Shown here in pieces: positions 1 to 7,998 of a stretch of DNA of 9,494 nucleotides (the stretch's first letter is position 1; every line of letters begins with the position of its first letter). Source of the stretch: a bacterium (GTDB lineage Bacteria > JAMCPX01); NCBI GenBank assembly GCA_021789095.1, contig JAJYJX010000099.1, positions 1-9,494 of the forward strand, given 5' to 3'. The notes beneath the pieces are model-generated. The model saw nothing but the letters and a program-made list of their open reading frames with translations. It was not told the DNA's origin and made no database searches. A program made the position numbers and the translations under genes.

Positions 1-1208
1 ACCTTTTTAAAGTTCTCCATTGACTGGGTGGTCTGGGCGAGTACAGCAAGCTTTTTAATGTTCCATAAAGAAGGCAGTTCTTCCGGGCTTTTTACCACGG
101 TAACCTGGCGCGGCAGTGCATAGCTCAGAAGACTTTTCACTTCCGGATGCATGGCATCTCCTATGATAACAACATGAAAGCCCTTTTTGGTGAGGGTTTT
201 GACCAGTTTCTGTGATCGTGTGACAAAGGGACAGGTCGCGTCTATTATATGAAGGCCTTTTTTGCCTGCGTTCCCGGATTCTTCGGTAGTTACGCCGTGT
301 GAACGGTATACCAGTGTACCGGATGATATATTATCTATATCCTCGACGGGCCTTATGCCTATCTCTTCAAGTCTTTGAACCTCCTGCGGGTTATGGATAA
401 GCGGGCCGAGAGTGTAAATGTCTTTGTGCTGTTTGGCCGTTTTAATGGCTATTTCAACTGCTCTTTTTACGCCGAAACAAAAACCGGCGGATATTGTTGT
501 GAAGAATTGGACGCCGTGTACGGTATCTATATACTTCTGTGACAATCTTGCCTTTGTTTCATTGTATAAGAAGGCGATGGCATTATCAATGGATTTATCG
601 GTGGTATCAACTATAATGGCTTCATCGGCGGGTTTGAGCGGAGCTATAACTCTGTGTTCATCCCTGATGTCGCGTTTCCTTATTTCAGAAAGTACATACT
701 CATAGGTTGTATCCGGCTCTATCGCTCTCAGCTCTTCATACCTCCTGGCTGCTCTTGCCTCCGGCGAAGCTGTTATGAAAAATTTTATATCTGCTGACGG
801 GAAAACAACGGTGCCGATGTCCCTGCCTTCAACAACGGTATTGCCCTTTACCATGTTATGTATAACGCTGTTTACGATATTTCTTATGCCCGGAAAAACA
901 GAGATTTGCGATGATGCCTGGGCGACATCCGCACGTTTCAGTTCGCCGTCGACCTCTTTATTGTCCATAAACAGGCTCCATGTCTTGCCGTTCTTCCTGA
1001 TCTCTAAAACAGTGTTTTGCGCAAGTCCTGCAAGGGAACGTTCATCATTGACCGGAACGTTATTCATGAGTGCCTTGAGTGCAAATGCCCTGTACAGGCT
1101 ACCGCTGTTTATGTAGTTATATCCGAGACTCCTGGCAAGCCCGGAACTTACCGTGCTTTTACCGCTTCCTGAGGGACCATCTATTGCTATGATTGTAGGT
1201 TTTTTCAT
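1..1208 (-). CDS. cmk-ispH: Fused cytidylate kinase / 4-hydroxy-3-methylbut-2-enyl diphosphate reductase (partial, 3' end cut by window)
   Basis: I read one open minus-strand frame of 402 full codons with no stop before the window edge. Residues 1-227 are cytidylate kinase (phosphorylates CMP/dCMP with ATP): P-loop GPSGSGKST at 11-19, NSGSLYRAF at 34-42, EGRDIGTVVFP at 127-137 and the lid RDIRDEHR at 179-186. From about residue 233 the same frame is IspH, the [4Fe-4S] enzyme that makes IPP and DMAPP in the last MEP-pathway step. It shows AGFCFGVKRA with cluster Cys244, LIHN (His272), SHG (His304), DATCPFV with Cys326, HPEV at 354-357 and QTT at 392-394. The spacing of Cys244 and Cys326 matches E. 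coli Cys12 and Cys96. The third cluster Cys lies beyond the edge. No ATG, GTG or stop separates the halves, so I infer a bifunctional protein with almost no linker; a TTG at residue 222 is a weak alternative IspH start. The ATG overlaps the aroA stop (ATGA). Gene order in related genomes suggests rpsA follows, perhaps fused too. Confidence 0.9.
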   Translation of the reverse strand, partial: MKKPTIIAIDGPSGSGKSTVSSGLARSLGYNYINSGSLYRAFALKALMNNVPVNDERSLAGLAQNTVLEIRKNGKTWSLFMDNKEVDGELKRADVAQASSQISVFPGIRNIVNSVIHNMVKGNTVVEGRDIGTVVFPSADIKFFITASPEARAARRYEELRAIEPDTTYEYVLSEIRKRDIRDEHRVIAPLKPADEAIIVDTTDKSIDNAIAFLYNETKARLSQKYIDTVHGVQFFTTISAGFCFGVKRAVEIAIKTAKQHKDIYTLGPLIHNPQEVQRLEEIGIRPVEDIDNISSGTLVYRSHGVTTEESGNAGKKGLHIIDATCPFVTRSQKLVKTLTKKGFHVVIIGDAMHPEVKSLLSYALPRQVTVVKSPEELPSLWNIKKLAVLAQTTQSMENFKK

Positions 1209-2518
1209 GCGTGCCTCAGCATATTGAATATATTTATGAATTCGGGGAAAGAAATACTGACGGCATCAAAATTATCTATAGAAATTTCCTTTTCGCTGGA
1301 AACAGATGCTGCTGCAAATGCCATTGCAATCCTGTGATCCCCGCAGCTTGATACAGAACCACCTTTAACTTTACCACCTTCAATAAGCATGCCGTCGCCA
1401 AGGTCTTTTGCTTTAATGCCTATCCCTGACAGCCCGTTGACAACAGCCTTTATCCGGTCTGTTTCTTTTACCCTTAATTCTCCTGCATTCCTTATAACTG
1501 TTTCTCCATGAGCATAAGCAGAAATAACAGCCAGCAGCGGCAGTTCATCAATAGCTCTTACGATAAGCTTTCTGTCGTCAAGGGTAATGCCGTGCAGTTT
1601 CGAATGGACAACATGGATATCAGCAACAGGTTCACCCGCCTCGTACCTTGTGTTGAGCAACTCTACGGATGCACCCATGCTCTTTAATATATCGATCAAC
1701 CCGGTCCTTCCCGGATTTACACCGACATTTGTGATAAGAATGTCCGAATGCGCCGCTATGGTACCTGCGCCTATGAAGAAAGCAGCGGAAGAGAAATCAC
1801 CCGGTACCGCTATATTTAAAGGCAGCGGTTTTTGTGCACATGCGAGCTGTACGGTACTGTCCCAGGACTTGAGATCAACACCGCTTGCTTTGAGTATTCG
1901 CTCTGTGTGATCCCTGGTACTTACCGGTTCTGTTATGGTCATGATGCCCCTTGCACCCATTGAAGCCATAATAAGTCCTGTTTTTACCTGAGCAGATGGA
2001 ACGGGCATGCTGTAATGAATGCCTTTCAGTTTTCCTCCCCTTACGGATAGAGGGAGGAGGTTTGCACGGTCCCTCCCGTCGAGGCTCGCACCCATCGCCA
2101 TCAACGGTGTTACTATCCTTTTCATAGGTCTTGTTTTCAGCGATTCATCGCCTGTCAATGCTGAAAAGAAGTCCCTGGTGCTCAAGAGGCCGAGCATGAT
2201 CCTTGCGGTAGTGCCTGAATTCCCGGCGTTCAGTATATCGGATGGTTCTTTTAACCCGTCGATTCCGTTGCCTGTTATGACGGCATAGGTATCTTTTATT
2301 TCAATATCGACACCCAACATACGCAGGCAATTTACGGTGCTCATCGTATCGTCGGCAACAAGAAGGTGTTCTATCCTGCTTATACCGGATGCTATGGCTG
2401 ATATGAAAAGGGCCCTGTGAGATATGGATTTGTCCCCCGGGACTGCTATCCGTCCTTCAAGTTTTTTAACCGGCCGGAAAAACACCGTACCACCTGACAT
2501 TGCAGCGATGTCGTTCAT
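1205..2518 (-). CDS. aroA: 3-phosphoshikimate 1-carboxyvinyltransferase (EPSP synthase)
   Basis: This cytoplasmic enzyme joins shikimate-3-phosphate and phosphoenolpyruvate to give EPSP, the sixth step of the shikimate pathway. At 437 residues it has the normal family length. Visible signatures are PGDKSISHRAL at 27-37, NAGNSGTTARIM at 97-108, PSAQVKTGL at 174-182, the catalytic-site DELPLLAV at 324-331, RVKETDRI at 349-356 and GDHRIAMA at 393-400. The GNSGTT form resembles Bacillus-type enzymes rather than the GNAGTA of enteric AroA; what that means for glyphosate sensitivity is not judged here. A TAG stands in frame directly before the ATG, so this is the earliest possible start. Met7 is an alternative that would put the PGDKS motif nearer its usual position, but it has no good ribosome site. 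A perfect AAGGAGG lies 14 nt upstream of the ATG, inside tyrA. The start overlaps the tyrA stop and the stop overlaps the cmk start, each as ATGA. Confidence 0.96.
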   Translation of the reverse strand: MNDIAAMSGGTVFFRPVKKLEGRIAVPGDKSISHRALFISAIASGISRIEHLLVADDTMSTVNCLRMLGVDIEIKDTYAVITGNGIDGLKEPSDILNAGNSGTTARIMLGLLSTRDFFSALTGDESLKTRPMKRIVTPLMAMGASLDGRDRANLLPLSVRGGKLKGIHYSMPVPSAQVKTGLIMASMGARGIMTITEPVSTRDHTERILKASGVDLKSWDSTVQLACAQKPLPLNIAVPGDFSSAAFFIGAGTIAAHSDILITNVGVNPGRTGLIDILKSMGASVELLNTRYEAGEPVADIHVVHSKLHGITLDDRKLIVRAIDELPLLAVISAYAHGETVIRNAGELRVKETDRIKAVVNGLSGIGIKAKDLGDGMLIEGGKVKGGSVSSCGDHRIAMAFAAASVSSEKEISIDNFDAVSISFPEFINIFNMLRHA

Positions 2519-3387
2519 CTATCTGTAATCTGCCTCCTTACATCTCTTACGCTTTCAAGAAACTCGCGTATGCCTTTCGTGTCTTTTTCCCTTATCATAC
2601 GGCTCAATGATTCAATGGTCCTTGAAAATCTGTCAATTGAGTTAAGTATCTCTTTTGAATTTGTAACGAATATATCCTTCCACATAACGGGATCGCTGCC
2701 TGCTATACGCGTGTAGTCCTTCAGCCCCCCTCCCGCATACTTGATAATTGCGTCACCGGTGTTCTGGTGTTCCATAATGCAGCCTATCAGCGCATAGGCG
2801 ATTATATGGGGCAGGTGTGAGACCATTGCCATGACCCTGTCATGCTCATAGGGGTCCATCACTATTACATCGCTGCCCAGGGATTCCCAGAACCTTGTTA
2901 TTGCTTCCACAGCAAACTGTTCCGTCCTGTCTGTGGGTGTAATGATACATTTTTTGTTCTCATATAATCCGTCAACAGCATTTATTGCACCTGACTTCTC
3001 CGTACCTGTAACAGGGTGACTGCCTATGTAGTTGCTGTGGCCGCGGAACAGCTCTGTCATCTTATTTACAATTTCACCCTTGGTGCTGCCTATATCTGTG
3101 ATGATGGCGTCCTTTCTTACGGCATAGACAATCCTTTTTGCTATCTCAAATGTTGCCAGGACCGGCGTTGCGAAAATAACAAGTACGGCCTCTGTAATTC
3201 CATCTTTAAGGCAGTCTGTATAGCTGTCAATCGCAGAGAGAGCCCTGGCGGTCTTCAGATTGTCGAAATTCCTGTCGATACCTATAATCTTGCCGCATAA
3301 CCCCTTTTTCTTTATAGCAAGGCCAAGGGATGTTCCCATCATCCCTGCGCCTATTATTGCGATCTGTTCATAAAAAGGCTTGTTCAT
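2515..3387 (-). CDS. tyrA: Prephenate dehydrogenase
   Basis: Oxidative decarboxylation of prephenate to 4-hydroxyphenylpyruvate, the committed step to tyrosine. The 290 residues show an N-terminal Rossmann fold with GAGMMGTSLG at 13-22. An acidic Asp38 at the end of beta-2 (IGIDRN) predicts NAD+ rather than NADP+ use. TDIGSTKG at 97-104 is followed by the active-site segment GSHPVTGTEKSG at 122-133 with catalytic His124. SHLPHIIA at 190-197 and GGGLKDYTRIAGSDP at 219-233 belong to the helical dimerisation domain. There is no chorismate mutase domain and no C-terminal ACT domain, so this is the short monofunctional form, and tyrosine feedback through an ACT domain is not expected. The ATG overlaps the hisC stop (CTATGAAC) and the ribosome site is weak, which suggests translational coupling to hisC. 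The 4-hydroxyphenylpyruvate made here is a likely substrate of the neighbouring aminotransferase. Confidence 0.95.
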   Translation of the reverse strand: MNKPFYEQIAIIGAGMMGTSLGLAIKKKGLCGKIIGIDRNFDNLKTARALSAIDSYTDCLKDGITEAVLVIFATPVLATFEIAKRIVYAVRKDAIITDIGSTKGEIVNKMTELFRGHSNYIGSHPVTGTEKSGAINAVDGLYENKKCIITPTDRTEQFAVEAITRFWESLGSDVIVMDPYEHDRVMAMVSHLPHIIAYALIGCIMEHQNTGDAIIKYAGGGLKDYTRIAGSDPVMWKDIFVTNSKEILNSIDRFSRTIESLSRMIREKDTKGIREFLESVRDVRRQITDR

Positions 3388-4496
3388 AGCCTGCCTGTCA
3401 GGATCTTCCTGAATTCCATTATAAACTTCCTGTTCTCTGCAGGTTTGCCAACATTGATCCTTATGTAATCGGCGAGTCCATAACTTGTCATGTCTCTTAC
3501 TATGACGCCTTTCATTAAAAGTGATTCAAATGCCTGTCTTGCTGTCATATAAGGGGATACCTTTACCAGAAAAAAGTTTGCCTGTGTTGGAATAAAATGT
3601 ATGTTGATTTTGTCAAGCATCCTGTACAGGTAATCAAGGCCGGCTTTGTTATTATCGAGCGTCCTCCTTACGAACTGCCTGTCATCCAGTGCTGCAAGAG
3701 CCGCCACCTGTGCAAGGCTGTTTACATTGAATGGCTGTCTGACGCGCTCTATGTAATCAGCAAGTTCAGGTGTTGTAATACCATAGCCTATCCGCAGTCC
3801 TGCAAGCCCGTAGAGCTTTGAGAAGGTCCTGAGCACTATAAGGTTTTTTACTTTTTTCTTGATGTATCCAATGCCGTCGGGGTATTCTTTTGACACGACG
3901 AACTCCCTGTATGCAGCATCGTCGACGACGATAACATGCTCGGGTATGCTTTTTATAAGCAGGTCATAATCTTTTTTCTTTAGTATCGTTCCGGTAGGAT
4001 TGTTGGGGTTGGAGATAAATATAAGTCTTGTCCGCTTATTTATGGCCCTTAGTATCCCTTTTATATCGTAGCTGTAATCGTCCATCAGTTTTATAATGAT
4101 AGACTTGCCTCCGGAAGCCTTTACCGTGATTGAATAGATAAGGAAGCTCGGATCAGATATGATTGCCTCATCTCCGGCCTGTATGAATGTTCTTATGATA
4201 AGTTCAATAAGCTCGTTTGAACCATTACCTATTACTATGGATTCTGTTGGTATTCCGTGGGTGGCTGAAAGTTTGTTTTTAAGATAAAACGCACTACCAT
4301 CGGGATAGCGATTTAATTTTTTTAAGGTCTTCTTTATAGCCTGTATGGCAAGCGGAGACGTGCCCAACGGGTTCTCGTTTGACGCTATCTTTACAGAATT
4401 TTTTATACCGAGTTCTCTCTCTACTTCTTCAATGGGCTTACCCGGAGGATACGGAACAATATCTTTAATATATCGGGGAATAAATCTGTAATTCAT
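3384..4496 (-). CDS. hisC: HisC-type class I/II aminotransferase, probably serving phenylalanine/tyrosine synthesis
   Basis: A PLP-dependent fold-type I aminotransferase of the histidinol-phosphate aminotransferase family, 370 residues (normal length). Motifs in order: SNENPLG at 39-45, RYPDGS at 63-68, NGSNELIELI at 91-100, SNPNNPTGT at 152-160, VDDAAYREF at 181-189, TFSKLYGLAGLRIGY at 214-228 with Lys217 as the expected Schiff-base lysine and Arg225 as phosphate ligand, and Arg336 in DYIRINVG as the expected substrate-carboxylate ligand. Family knowledge: HisC enzymes often also transaminate phenylpyruvate and 4-hydroxyphenylpyruvate. Inference: lying between pheA and tyrA with ATGA overlaps on both sides, its main job here is probably the last step to Phe and Tyr. 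No other his gene is in view, so a dedicated histidine role is less likely, but a dual role is possible if the genome has no second hisC. An AGGAG stands just before the start. Confidence 0.92.
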   Translation of the reverse strand: MNYRFIPRYIKDIVPYPPGKPIEEVERELGIKNSVKIASNENPLGTSPLAIQAIKKTLKKLNRYPDGSAFYLKNKLSATHGIPTESIVIGNGSNELIELIIRTFIQAGDEAIISDPSFLIYSITVKASGGKSIIIKLMDDYSYDIKGILRAINKRTRLIFISNPNNPTGTILKKKDYDLLIKSIPEHVIVVDDAAYREFVVSKEYPDGIGYIKKKVKNLIVLRTFSKLYGLAGLRIGYGITTPELADYIERVRQPFNVNSLAQVAALAALDDRQFVRRTLDNNKAGLDYLYRMLDKINIHFIPTQANFFLVKVSPYMTARQAFESLLMKGVIVRDMTSYGLADYIRINVGKPAENRKFIMEFRKILTGRL

Positions 4497-5581
4497 GCAT
4501 TCTCCTGCTTTGTTTTTGGATAAGAACCAAGGAATTTAAAGAACACCGTATGGAGCTTTAATGCCGCTATAGCCTTCTTGATCTTCTGATCTTCAATATG
4601 TCCATCAATATCCACAAAGAAAAGGTATTCCCATGCCTTTTTCTTTAACGGTCTTGATTCTATTTTTGTAAGGTTCACTCTGTAATCCGAAAATGGTTTT
4701 AACGCTGAATACAGGGCGCCCGCCTTGTGCTTTACTGCAAAAATAATGGAGGTTTTGTCGTTGTCCGTCCTGTCGGGCATAATCTTTCCTATAACAACGA
4801 ACCTGGTAACATTGTTAGGATTTTCTTCGAGTCTGTTGGCAAGTATTTTAAGTTTATAAAGCCTTGCTGCAAGCTCACTTACGATAGCTACGGATGAGAC
4901 TGTCTGCTGCACTATTCTGGCGGCCTGGCTTGTACTGTCTGTATCAACGGTAAGAGCATTCGGAAGTTTCTCCCTTATCCATCTTCTGCACTGTGCGATA
5001 GCCTGTGGATGGGAGTATACTTTTTTAATAGTGTTTAAATTGGTCTTTTCCTTTGCTGCAAGTACATAGCTTATAGGAACAAAGATTTCTCGGGCTATTA
5101 ACAGGTTTGAATCTATAAACCGATCAAGTGTTTGCGGTACAGTACCTTCCATGGAGTTTTCTATCGGAACAACGCCGAAATCGCAGTTGCTGTATTCTAC
5201 CTCGTTAAAGATCTCGGAAATGTTTTTGGCTGGCACAAGAGGGGATGAATTCCCGAACTCAAGAAGTGCTGCCTGATGTGCCCATGTACCTTCAGGACCA
5301 AGGAATGCTATCTTTGGAGGTGTTACGGATGCTCTTGAAGCGGAAAAAACTTCCTTGAATATGTGTTTGATAAATTCGTTTTTAAGCGGTCCTCTGTTAA
5401 GGCGCATGAGCCTGTTTATAATGAATGCTTCCCTTGACGGGTAATATACCGGCGCCGCTGTTTTTTTCTTTTCTTTGTTTATATCTATTGCTATTTTTAT
5501 CCGCTTATTCAAAAGTTCAAGAAGCTTATCGTCGATTATATCTATCTGCTTCCTTAAATCATTTACATAATTATTTATCAT
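4493..5581 (-). CDS. pheA: Bifunctional chorismate mutase / prephenate dehydratase (P-protein) with ACT domain
   Basis: Converts chorismate to prephenate and then to phenylpyruvate. Three domains fill 362 residues. AroQ-type chorismate mutase spans about 1-85, with the expected active-site basic and acidic residues Arg10, Arg27, Lys38-40, Arg50 and Glu51. Prephenate dehydratase spans about 90-265, with GPEGTW at 95-100, ENSMEGTV at 141-148, SHPQAIAQC at 190-198 and catalytic NVTRF at 257-261. A C-terminal ACT domain spans about 277-355, with GAL at 288-290 and ESRP at 308-311. The intact ACT domain with its ESRP motif predicts allosteric inhibition by phenylalanine, as known for P-proteins. 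The start ATG sits in an ATGA overlap with the end of the upstream diguanylate cyclase gene, and AGGAG lies about 9 nt before it inside that gene. The stop overlaps the hisC start in the same way. Confidence 0.97.
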   Translation of the reverse strand: MINNYVNDLRKQIDIIDDKLLELLNKRIKIAIDINKEKKKTAAPVYYPSREAFIINRLMRLNRGPLKNEFIKHIFKEVFSASRASVTPPKIAFLGPEGTWAHQAALLEFGNSSPLVPAKNISEIFNEVEYSNCDFGVVPIENSMEGTVPQTLDRFIDSNLLIAREIFVPISYVLAAKEKTNLNTIKKVYSHPQAIAQCRRWIREKLPNALTVDTDSTSQAARIVQQTVSSVAIVSELAARLYKLKILANRLEENPNNVTRFVVIGKIMPDRTDNDKTSIIFAVKHKAGALYSALKPFSDYRVNLTKIESRPLKKKAWEYLFFVDIDGHIEDQKIKKAIAALKLHTVFFKFLGSYPKTKQENA

Positions 5582-7464
5582 GTATCATTCTCCTGCATGG
5601 ATTTGCTGTCGTATTTTATTATAGTATTCCTTCCTTGCTTCTTTGCTTCATAAAGCGCTATATCAGATGCGTACAGGAACTCGTTTGCATTATCAAACAT
5701 TTCATCGGGATATGAAACAAAGCCTATGCTCACCGTAAGAATGATAGTGCCGTCCTGTTTGAATGCTTCGACTGTGGCTTTTCTCAGTTTTTCTGCAACT
5801 ATCATTGCTCCGTCAGCATTTGTGTCAGGAAGTATAATTATAAACTCTTCACCTCCGTACCTGATGGTCGTATCAATACCGCGTATATGCGTCTTAAAGA
5901 TCTGTGACAGTGTACCAAGGGCCTCATCGCCCTTCAGGTGCCCGAATTTATCGTTGTATTCCTTGAACAGATCTACATCAATCATCAATAAGGAAAGCGG
6001 CTGGGAATACCGCTTTGCCCTCTCCCACTCTTTATCAAGCACAACACGCATGTGCCTCCTGTTGAATAATCCGGTGAGGTCGTCCGTTATGGATAGTTCC
6101 TTTGTCTGGGCGTAAAGTCTTGTGTTTTCTATGACAACTGCAATCTGCGCGCATATGGCTGAAAGAAAATCCATATCTTTTCTGGTAAGGCTGTTTGGCA
6201 CATCGTTGCCTACGTTCAATACACCGATGACATTATTTTTATATTTAAGGGGCAGGCTTAAAAAAGAACCTTCGGTTCGTTTCTGTCCTTTGTAATGCAA
6301 GTAGCCTACTTCATTGCTGGTATCATTTATAAGCATGGGTTTGCCTGTGGATGCTACCTGTCCGCTTATGCCTTCATCAAGGCCGAACTCCATGCCTATA
6401 AGTTTTATGTTGTCTTCAAAACCCCATGCCGAAACAATCCTGAGAATATTGTCTTCCCTGAAGAGGATGGCGCATTCTTTGTAATGGAGTGTATCCACGA
6501 TTGTAGTCGTAATAATGCGCAGCAGCTCGTTCATATCCACTGTTGATATGATGTACTGCCCGAAGTTATAAAGCAGGGACAGCTCTTTTACACTTTCTCC
6601 GAGTTCTTTGTTCATCTCCTCTATCTGTTCGGAGCGTTTCTCAAGGATCTTTTTATACCTCAATTCTTCTTTTGCAAACACAAGTTCTCTCTCCCTTTCA
6701 ACGCTGGCGGCCATAAGTTTGGTTATCCTTGAGAGCATCTGATTGAAATTGTTTTCTATTTCTCCAATCTCATCTTTTCTGTTCTGCTCTGCGCGGGGAA
6801 GAAAGTTGTTTGCCTCGGCCTTATGTATGAGTTCCAGGAATCCTTTCAAAGGCCTGACCACCATGGTCTCAGAGATAAATATGGAAATAACCCCGAATAT
6901 GAAGAAAATGGATACAAAGATTAGCCCCAGTTTCTTAGCCATGGCATAGGTATGTTTGTAGATCTGGCTGTAATACACGCTCACCTTTACGAAGCCGAGT
7001 CTGTCACCATTGTGGTGACATTTCTGGCAACCGGCGACGAGCCTTACAGGTGCAATATAATCCAATGTTTTTTCAGACATGCTGGAGATATAATGATCGT
7101 ATGACAAATCCTGAAGCTGGGTTAAGTCTTTTTCTTTTAAAGGCGCCTGCCTGGAAGGTGTGCTTGATATGACAGGTCTGCCGTTATTGTCATACAGCGT
7201 GATGTAATTGACACCGGATGCTTCATCAACTTCCTCTATAATCTGCTGCGGTGAGAGGTTGTGTTCTTTGCCGTTGGTATAAGACAACAGTTCGTTGATC
7301 GTTCTGGTTGCCAGGGAAAATTGATATGCTGAAGTATCGTGTGCGAAATCTTTTTCAAAGTATATATACAGACACAAAACGATACCGAGGGTTATAACGA
7401 CAACAAGACTCAATAAGGCCGTCAGTTTATAGGTGATGCTTTTACCGAATAATGTCCTCAACAT
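5578..7464 (-). CDS. Membrane diguanylate cyclase with periplasmic c-type haem (DUF3365/Tll0287-like) sensor, HAMP, GAF and GGDEF domains
   Basis: A 628-residue inner-membrane signalling protein. TM1 is at about 13-36. The periplasmic sensor spans about 37-178 and carries one CxxCH haem-attachment motif, CQKCH at 146-150, followed by GDRLGFVKVSV as in Tll0287-like/DUF3365 domains. TM2 is at about 179-199, HAMP at about 200-252, a charged coiled coil at 252-298, a GAF domain at about 305-447 and a C-terminal GGDEF domain at about 455-618. The active loop is GGEEF at 537-541, a competent variant, with metal-site Asp496 in MIDVD. The inhibitory I-site RGID (528-531) lies the usual five residues upstream. 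I infer an active, product-inhibited cyclase making c-di-GMP in response to a haem-sensed cue such as redox state or a gas, plus a GAF signal. AAGGA lies 6 nt before the ATG. It is the first gene of the unit and overlaps pheA by 4 nt, so it is probably co-transcribed with aromatic amino acid genes. Confidence 0.93.
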   Translation of the reverse strand: MLRTLFGKSITYKLTALLSLVVVITLGIVLCLYIYFEKDFAHDTSAYQFSLATRTINELLSYTNGKEHNLSPQQIIEEVDEASGVNYITLYDNNGRPVISSTPSRQAPLKEKDLTQLQDLSYDHYISSMSEKTLDYIAPVRLVAGCQKCHHNGDRLGFVKVSVYYSQIYKHTYAMAKKLGLIFVSIFFIFGVISIFISETMVVRPLKGFLELIHKAEANNFLPRAEQNRKDEIGEIENNFNQMLSRITKLMAASVERERELVFAKEELRYKKILEKRSEQIEEMNKELGESVKELSLLYNFGQYIISTVDMNELLRIITTTIVDTLHYKECAILFREDNILRIVSAWGFEDNIKLIGMEFGLDEGISGQVASTGKPMLINDTSNEVGYLHYKGQKRTEGSFLSLPLKYKNNVIGVLNVGNDVPNSLTRKDMDFLSAICAQIAVVIENTRLYAQTKELSITDDLTGLFNRRHMRVVLDKEWERAKRYSQPLSLLMIDVDLFKEYNDKFGHLKGDEALGTLSQIFKTHIRGIDTTIRYGGEEFIIILPDTNADGAMIVAEKLRKATVEAFKQDGTIILTVSIGFVSYPDEMFDNANEFLYASDIALYEAKKQGRNTIIKYDSKSMQENDT

Positions 7465-7494
7465 AAACCATCCTTACAATGACGATGTTAAAAA

Positions 7495-7520
7495 AGTCAA
7501 TCTTGTGGACAGTTTTGACT
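7495..7520. repeat. Inverted repeat AGTCAA-N14-TTGACT upstream of the operon (possible operator)
   Basis: Two perfect 6-bp arms (7495-7500 and 7515-7520) have centres 20 bp apart, about two helical turns. They lie 31-56 bp before the diguanylate cyclase start. The spacing and position suit a dimeric regulator, but arms this short can arise by chance and no regulator is identified. Confidence 0.25.
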
Positions 7521-7719: not shown

Positions 7720-7998
7720 ATGATTACCGCGTTTGTCCATATATCATGCAGTCCGGGGAAGCTTGATGAGCTGGCAGAATCCATTTCTCAGGTGGAAGGT
7801 GTTACAGAGGTATACTCCGTTACAGGAGATTATGACCTGCTGATTATTATAAGGACGGCAAGCATAGATGAACTACCCGGCATTGTCACAGACAATATCC
7901 TTAAAAGGGATGGTATAACAAAGGCGAACACATCGATCGGGTTTAAGGTATATTCAAAGCATAATCTTGAAACAATGTTTTCGATAGGTCTTGACTGA
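7720..7998 (+). CDS. Stand-alone Lrp/AsnC-type ligand-binding (RAM) domain protein
   Basis: The 92 residues match the regulation-of-amino-acid-metabolism (RAM) domain alone, with the beta-alpha-beta-beta-alpha-beta pattern. ITAFVHISC is beta-1, GKLDELAESISQ is alpha-1, VTEVYSVTGDYDLLIIIRT carries the typical turn GDYD at 36-39, DELPGIVTDNILK is alpha-2 and KANTSIGFKVY is the last strand. In full-length Lrp/AsnC regulators this domain binds amino acids and oligomerises. Here the N-terminal helix-turn-helix is absent, and the strong ribosome site at the ATG shows this is not a truncated reading. It therefore probably does not bind DNA alone; known small RAM proteins act as effector-binding oligomers or partners of full Lrp proteins. 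The gene is divergent from the aromatic amino acid operon and 21 nt upstream of an FAH-family gene, probably in the same transcript. An aromatic amino acid ligand is a guess from context. Confidence 0.88.
   Translation: MITAFVHISCSPGKLDELAESISQVEGVTEVYSVTGDYDLLIIIRTASIDELPGIVTDNILKRDGITKANTSIGFKVYSKHNLETMFSIGLD

Follow-up and report, generated by a model that had tools for sequence, protein, structure and literature searches.

A diguanylate cyclase gene with a putative haem-c Cache sensor at the head of the pheA operon in one bacterial family

The operon and its leading gene

The window, that is, the whole stretch of 9,494 nucleotides analysed here, comes from a genome of 2.15 Mb in 203 contigs and carries an operon in which a diguanylate cyclase gene precedes genes of aromatic amino acid synthesis (Table 1). 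From the operon head, the gene order is cyclase-pheA-hisC-tyrA-aroA-cmk/ispH. The cyclase and pheA genes share four nucleotides (ATGA, 5578-5581), and the later junctions are also 4-nt overlaps. Because the next upstream gene, beginning at 7720 on the forward strand, is divergent, the cyclase opens the unit, and both this position and the overlap agree with the preliminary description of the locus. In relatives, cmk-ispH is followed by the S1 gene; cmk and ispH share one reading frame in the window and likewise in G001, G003 and G004. The divergent neighbour (7720-7998, forward strand) encodes an Lrp/AsnC ligand-binding (RAM) domain on its own, with no DNA-binding part attached. It was seen at the same place in G004, G006 and G007, and was not found there in the other family genomes.

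The cyclase protein is composed of a first transmembrane segment, a periplasmic Cache sensor with the motif CQKCH, a second transmembrane segment, and HAMP, GAF and GGDEF domains, the transmembrane segments being read from the sequence and the cytoplasmic domains recognised by domain matches. The RGID I-site lies at residue 528, with GGEEF five residues further on. The reading frame and the domain matches bear out the TM-sensor-TM-HAMP-GAF-GGDEF order and the three motifs described earlier, and the enzyme belongs to an already known kind. Among the nine family orthologues, CxxCH, RxxD and GGEEF are all intact; 52% of alignment columns are invariant in GAF vs 13% in the sensor, and HAMP and GGDEF are conserved as strongly as GAF. 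The coding sequence is intact in all nine genomes while fourfold sites along the gene are only 42% identical overall, which indicates that the protein is under purifying selection. The last cyclase codons, which contain the GGAG of pheA, are conserved at their few synonymous sites. Together with the 4-nt overlap, this GGAG in the cyclase tail suggests coupled translation of the cyclase and pheA.

Table 1. Features of the cyclase-pheA operon and of the region before it (window coordinates unless a locus or residues are given)
Feature	Position	Strand	Remarks
cmk-ispH fused gene	3..1208	-	cut by window end
aroA, EPSP synthase	1205..2518	-	
tyrA, prephenate dehydrogenase	2515..3387	-	
hisC-like aminotransferase gene	3384..4496	-	
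pheA, chorismate mutase-prephenate dehydratase-ACT	4493..5581	-	4-nt overlap with cyclase
pheA Shine-Dalgarno-like GGAG in cyclase tail	5590..5593	-	8 nt before pheA ATG, sequence read
Putative haem-c Cache-HAMP-GAF-GGDEF diguanylate cyclase gene	5578..7464	-	ATG start, 628 aa
Periplasmic single-Cache sensor, between TM1 and TM2	6925..7368 (residues 33-180)	-	predicted by model and profile comparison
CQKCH, haem-c attachment motif	7015..7029 (residues 146-150)	-	CxxCH in 9/9 orthologues
Cyclase HAMP	residues 202-248		domain match
Cyclase GAF	residues 309-446		domain match
Cyclase GGDEF	residues 459-613		domain match
GGDEF domain with RGID I-site, RYGGEEF and guanine-contact N/D residues	5626..6090	-	
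-10-like hexamer TGTAAG	7473..7478	-	16-nt spacer, 8 nt before cyclase ATG
-35-like hexamer TTGACT of the promoter-like block	7495..7500	-	conserved despite differing upstream genes
Inverted-repeat elements of g2 genomes	L001 1159-1470; L046 3799-4170; L047 4340-4900		

Linkage of the cyclase and pheA across genomes

The family sample consisted of the window genome and eight others, nine genomes of four genera. In each of the eight, the best match to the cyclase is an orthologue with 57-74% identity (PheA identity within the family is 70-91%), and in all nine genomes the cyclase lies directly before pheA. The pairing is therefore fixed in the sampled family rather than a peculiarity of one genome, which the preliminary description had named as the outcome that would count against it. 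The ATGA overlap recurs at eight of the nine junctions; in the remaining genome, G003, the two genes are separated by a 15-nt gap, and pheA has an AGGAGG of its own. In G006, the contig breaks off after 66 codons of pheA, leaving the start of the gene intact, and the remainder opens another contig. Identical junctions in independent genomes rule out an assembly artefact.

The cyclase stayed adjacent to pheA while its other neighbours changed, as its 5' neighbours vary between genera. In the window and some g2 genomes they are the divergent RAM-domain gene and a FAA-hydrolase gene, in G003 a penicillin-binding-protein-like gene, and in G001 and G008 other genes, assignments beyond the window's own relatives having been made by eye. 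G005 carries, about 65 bp upstream of the cyclase and on its strand, a gene for a NapC/NrfH-like multihaem membrane cytochrome (L050, 6127-7515); G002 has a homologue further upstream (L051).

All sampled genomes outside the family are related to the window genome at the domain level only, so the Desulfobacterota and Nitrospirota relatives named earlier were not confirmed. The search for pheA was positive in 280 of 386 genomes. From outside the family, 80 loci were examined, some of them shortened by contig ends, using a GGDEF profile that picked up all three positive controls. A GGDEF gene occurred near pheA at two of these loci. At L110 (196-2568, G241), a receiver-receiver-GGDEF gene lies directly downstream of pheA in an unrelated genome, and at L121 a large sensor-GGDEF gene lies about 1 kb upstream with another gene between; neither protein is a haem cyclase of the window type, and L110 is the one case besides the family in which a cyclase was seen close to pheA. 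With eight GGDEF genes per about 2.1 Mb, some 2% of 5-kb stretches would contain one by chance, so two of 80 is about the chance level. On this sample of 80 loci, the linkage was rejected as a wider phenomenon, and an association between haem cyclases and pheA beyond the family is not supported.

Operons of the order pheA-hisC-tyrA-aroA-cmk-ispH-rpsA resemble that of the window in having hisC near pheA, which is also the case at about half of the 80 outside loci, whereas a diguanylate cyclase as the first gene under a putatively shared promoter was seen only in this family. No description of a cyclase-pheA operon was found in the literature searched. A haem-Cache HAMP-GAF-GGDEF cyclase also exists in the unrelated genome G035 (L053, 9324-11240); it resembles the window cyclase in domain order and in its CxxCH sensor, with 33-35% identity, but is not linked to pheA. 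In effect, the cyclase-pheA linkage is genuine and conserved, yet limited to one lineage; it seems to be confined to a single bacterial family.

The periplasmic sensor and the GGDEF output

The sensor had been described as a DUF3365/Tll0287 domain. Pfam gives no PF11845 match for the window protein, and PF21563 (Mcp40H-20_sensor, Geobacter-type) scores 15.5 bits against a cut-off of 27, which is a curation threshold and not a biological feature. Sub-threshold matches were obtained for PF11845 in five of the eight orthologues (best E 0.0045) and for PF21563 in six of the eight (best E 0.0014). When a profile of the orthologous TM-sensor-TM-HAMP region was searched, numerous sensor-HAMP proteins from elsewhere matched; most of the top ones have a correctly placed CxxCH, and several of these are kinases. 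In a sensor-only hhalign comparison with six CxxCH Cache sensors, kinases among them, the match reached 96.4% with an E value of 1.4e-9, and two of these six pass the PF21563 cut-off. A profile search of the PDB placed 3b47 (GSU0582, E 0.067) and 5b82 (Tll0287, E 0.2) as the top two, both weak.

The structure model of the sensor, built from three sequences, is of moderate confidence (mean pLDDT 71). In it, the CxxCH stands between strands 101-109 and 123-132 (strands 3 and 4), in a loop that is among the weakest parts of the model (pLDDT <50). Cache structures such as WalK, CitA, DcuS and PctD fill the Foldseek and VIA-align lists, with Z up to 12. Foldseek ranks GSU0935 26th and GSU0582 46th; GSU0582, GSU0935 and Tll0287 are not among the best 50 VIA-align matches listed, which has no bearing either way. 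Profile comparison and predicted fold thus place the sensor with the haem-c Cache sensors, sCache_heme (GSU0582/GSU0935/Tll0287), so that membership of the superfamily is retained while the strict DUF3365 assignment fails the Pfam threshold. The sensor is predicted to share with sCache_heme, PF11845 and PF21563 an extracytoplasmic single-Cache fold with CxxCH between late strands, but it falls under both cut-offs.

A 2026 preprint (PMC12889525) groups Tll0287, GSU0582 and GSU0935 as sCache_heme and describes such domains fused to c-di-GMP enzymes; one signalling member is reported there to behave as an NO sensor. Geobacter haem-c sensor domains are described in a review (PMC8396549) as redox- or NO-responsive, with loss of the axial Met upon redox change. 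The axial Met of GSU0582 and GSU0935 and the axial Cys of Tll0287, however, are without a conserved counterpart in the window sensor: among the nine orthologues there is no conserved Met or further Cys in the sensor, and apart from H150 only the histidines H68 and H171 are invariant. Either of these may be the sixth haem ligand, or the site may be open. The window sensor would extend the preprint's haem-c Cache sensors by a divergent branch in which the known axial ligands are missing. A ResB haem-attachment gene is present in all nine family genomes. The fold, the CxxCH of every orthologue and ResB support the earlier claim of a periplasmic haem-c sensor, in which haem loading of the CQKCH domain, and hence haem c sensing, is likely. 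By analogy with the characterised families, the signal is probably redox state or NO.

In the output domain, RYGGEEF, the RxxD I-site and the guanine-contact residues ND..GH..GDE are intact in all nine orthologues, in keeping with the complete c-di-GMP-type GGDEF domain originally recognised. The domain aligns with WspR, PleD and further solved cyclases and shares these motifs with them, but the window cyclase would receive its input from a membrane sensor through HAMP and GAF and not from a response-regulator receiver. Hypr (cGAMP) enzymes have a Ser variant at the guanine contact instead of Asn/Asp; the contact Asn/Asp found here, as in WspR, rules out such an enzyme. The expected activity is c-di-GMP synthesis with I-site feedback. 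PilZ matches, numbering four to nine in each of the nine family genomes, represent possible c-di-GMP receptors.

One promoter and the meaning of the linkage

The block TTGACTTTT-N10-CATTGTAA stands unchanged just before the cyclase ATG in eight of the nine family genomes. Its -10-like hexamer is TGTAAA or TATAAT in relatives, and the ninth genome, G003, has TTGCCT-15-TATAAT at the same distance, so that in every genome 8-10 nt separate the end of a TGTAAR or TATAAT hexamer from the ATG. The TGTAAG of the window fits the consensus poorly, and this site is missing from the hits of the promoter scan. A sigma-70-type start at this spacing would leave a leader of about 0-3 nt, and the cyclase message is therefore predicted to be almost leaderless. 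An RNA leader or attenuator was rejected, there being no Rfam match besides four tRNAs and hardly any leader left by the promoter-like block. In seven family genomes scanned, exact copies of the block occur only at the cyclase site (six genomes; G003 is without the block), while inexact matches are about as frequent as for a reversed control. Matches with one or two mismatches precede two other genes, one TPR-like and one acyl-CoA synthetase-like. These close matches before unrelated genes resemble general promoters, and the block was rejected as the operator of a dedicated regulon; it looks like the ordinary promoter type of the lineage. Upstream of the block, g2 genomes contain short inverted repeats of the form TGTCATTGCGA...TCGCAATGACA, which probably represent a mobile palindromic repeat.

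Since the 5' block is conserved and synonymous sites show no conserved block near the cyclase 3' end, a single promoter serving the cyclase and pheA is the simplest reading and likely. Inside the cyclase gene, synonymous conservation is not raised except in the very last codons, and no sequence sign of a terminator or a separate promoter was seen between the two genes, the findings that had been named as able to overturn the idea. Two weak promoter-like matches in the 3' part of the gene could allow pheA to start its own transcript there, with adjacency being merely physical, but such matches are no commoner than in shuffled sequences (16 found vs 19.2 expected), and the GGAG-bearing overlap points to coupled translation. 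Separate promoters are thus improbable. The shared block agrees with the claim of one promoter for both genes, co-transcription being what we infer from it. Taken together, it is reasonably probable that the operon is headed by a membrane haem-c Cache diguanylate cyclase and that a single conserved promoter before this gene drives both it and pheA. Haem c would be attached to CQKCH in the periplasm, and a change in its oxidation or the binding of NO would alter the Cache domain. As in the related families, TM2 and HAMP would relay this signal through GAF to the GGDEF dimer, which would produce c-di-GMP under I-site feedback. Placement at the operon head would make cyclase abundance depend on how amino acid synthesis stands, with haem setting the activity of the enzyme.

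Two readings of the linkage fit such co-transcription: it may be useful for cyclase levels to follow anabolic transcription, or the cyclase cannot leave because the operon promoter comes with it. The latter, in which a general redox or NO sensor arrived at the operon head with a promoter that its loss would remove, needs no functional tie and is a serious though less probable account. It is consistent with the absence of the linkage at the loci sampled outside the family, with promoters of similar -35 serving unrelated genes, and with the G035 cyclase of the same architecture away from pheA. A second cyclase of the window genome also lies in a pdxJ operon, which makes a cyclase in a housekeeping operon nothing unusual there; this 697-aa membrane GGDEF gene (L182, 2222-5041; G000:C127) ends 6 nt before a pdxJ-like gene and follows ctpA- and ftsB-like genes. 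Promoter position alone would permit the coding sequence to decay, yet the cyclase is intact in all nine genomes despite its divergent fourfold sites, although purifying selection could act on a cyclase function unrelated to aromatic synthesis.

The pdxJ-linked and the G035 cyclases call for caution about the functional meaning of the linkage. No sign was seen that c-di-GMP or a haem signal regulates phenylalanine and tyrosine synthesis; a regulatory tie is possible but unsupported, and promoter-anchored co-transcription suffices for the linkage without it. That the haem cyclase and pheA-tyrA form one regulatory unit, in which the c-di-GMP level responds jointly to anabolic state and periplasmic redox and perhaps feeds back on the operon, is unlikely. 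Direct feedback, in which the cytoplasmic GAF binds phenylalanine, tyrosine or a pathway intermediate and c-di-GMP reports aromatic status, is less probable still: GAF domains can bind small molecules, and this one is among the best conserved parts of the protein, but HAMP and GGDEF match its conservation and the ligand is purely hypothetical.

If the tie is functional, a periplasmic haem signal, c-di-GMP and a core biosynthetic operon would be joined in a fixed way that is rare, with one promoter and a prediction open to test. If promoter anchoring is all there is, the operon would be a clean example of how a housekeeping operon can retain a signalling gene as its first gene.
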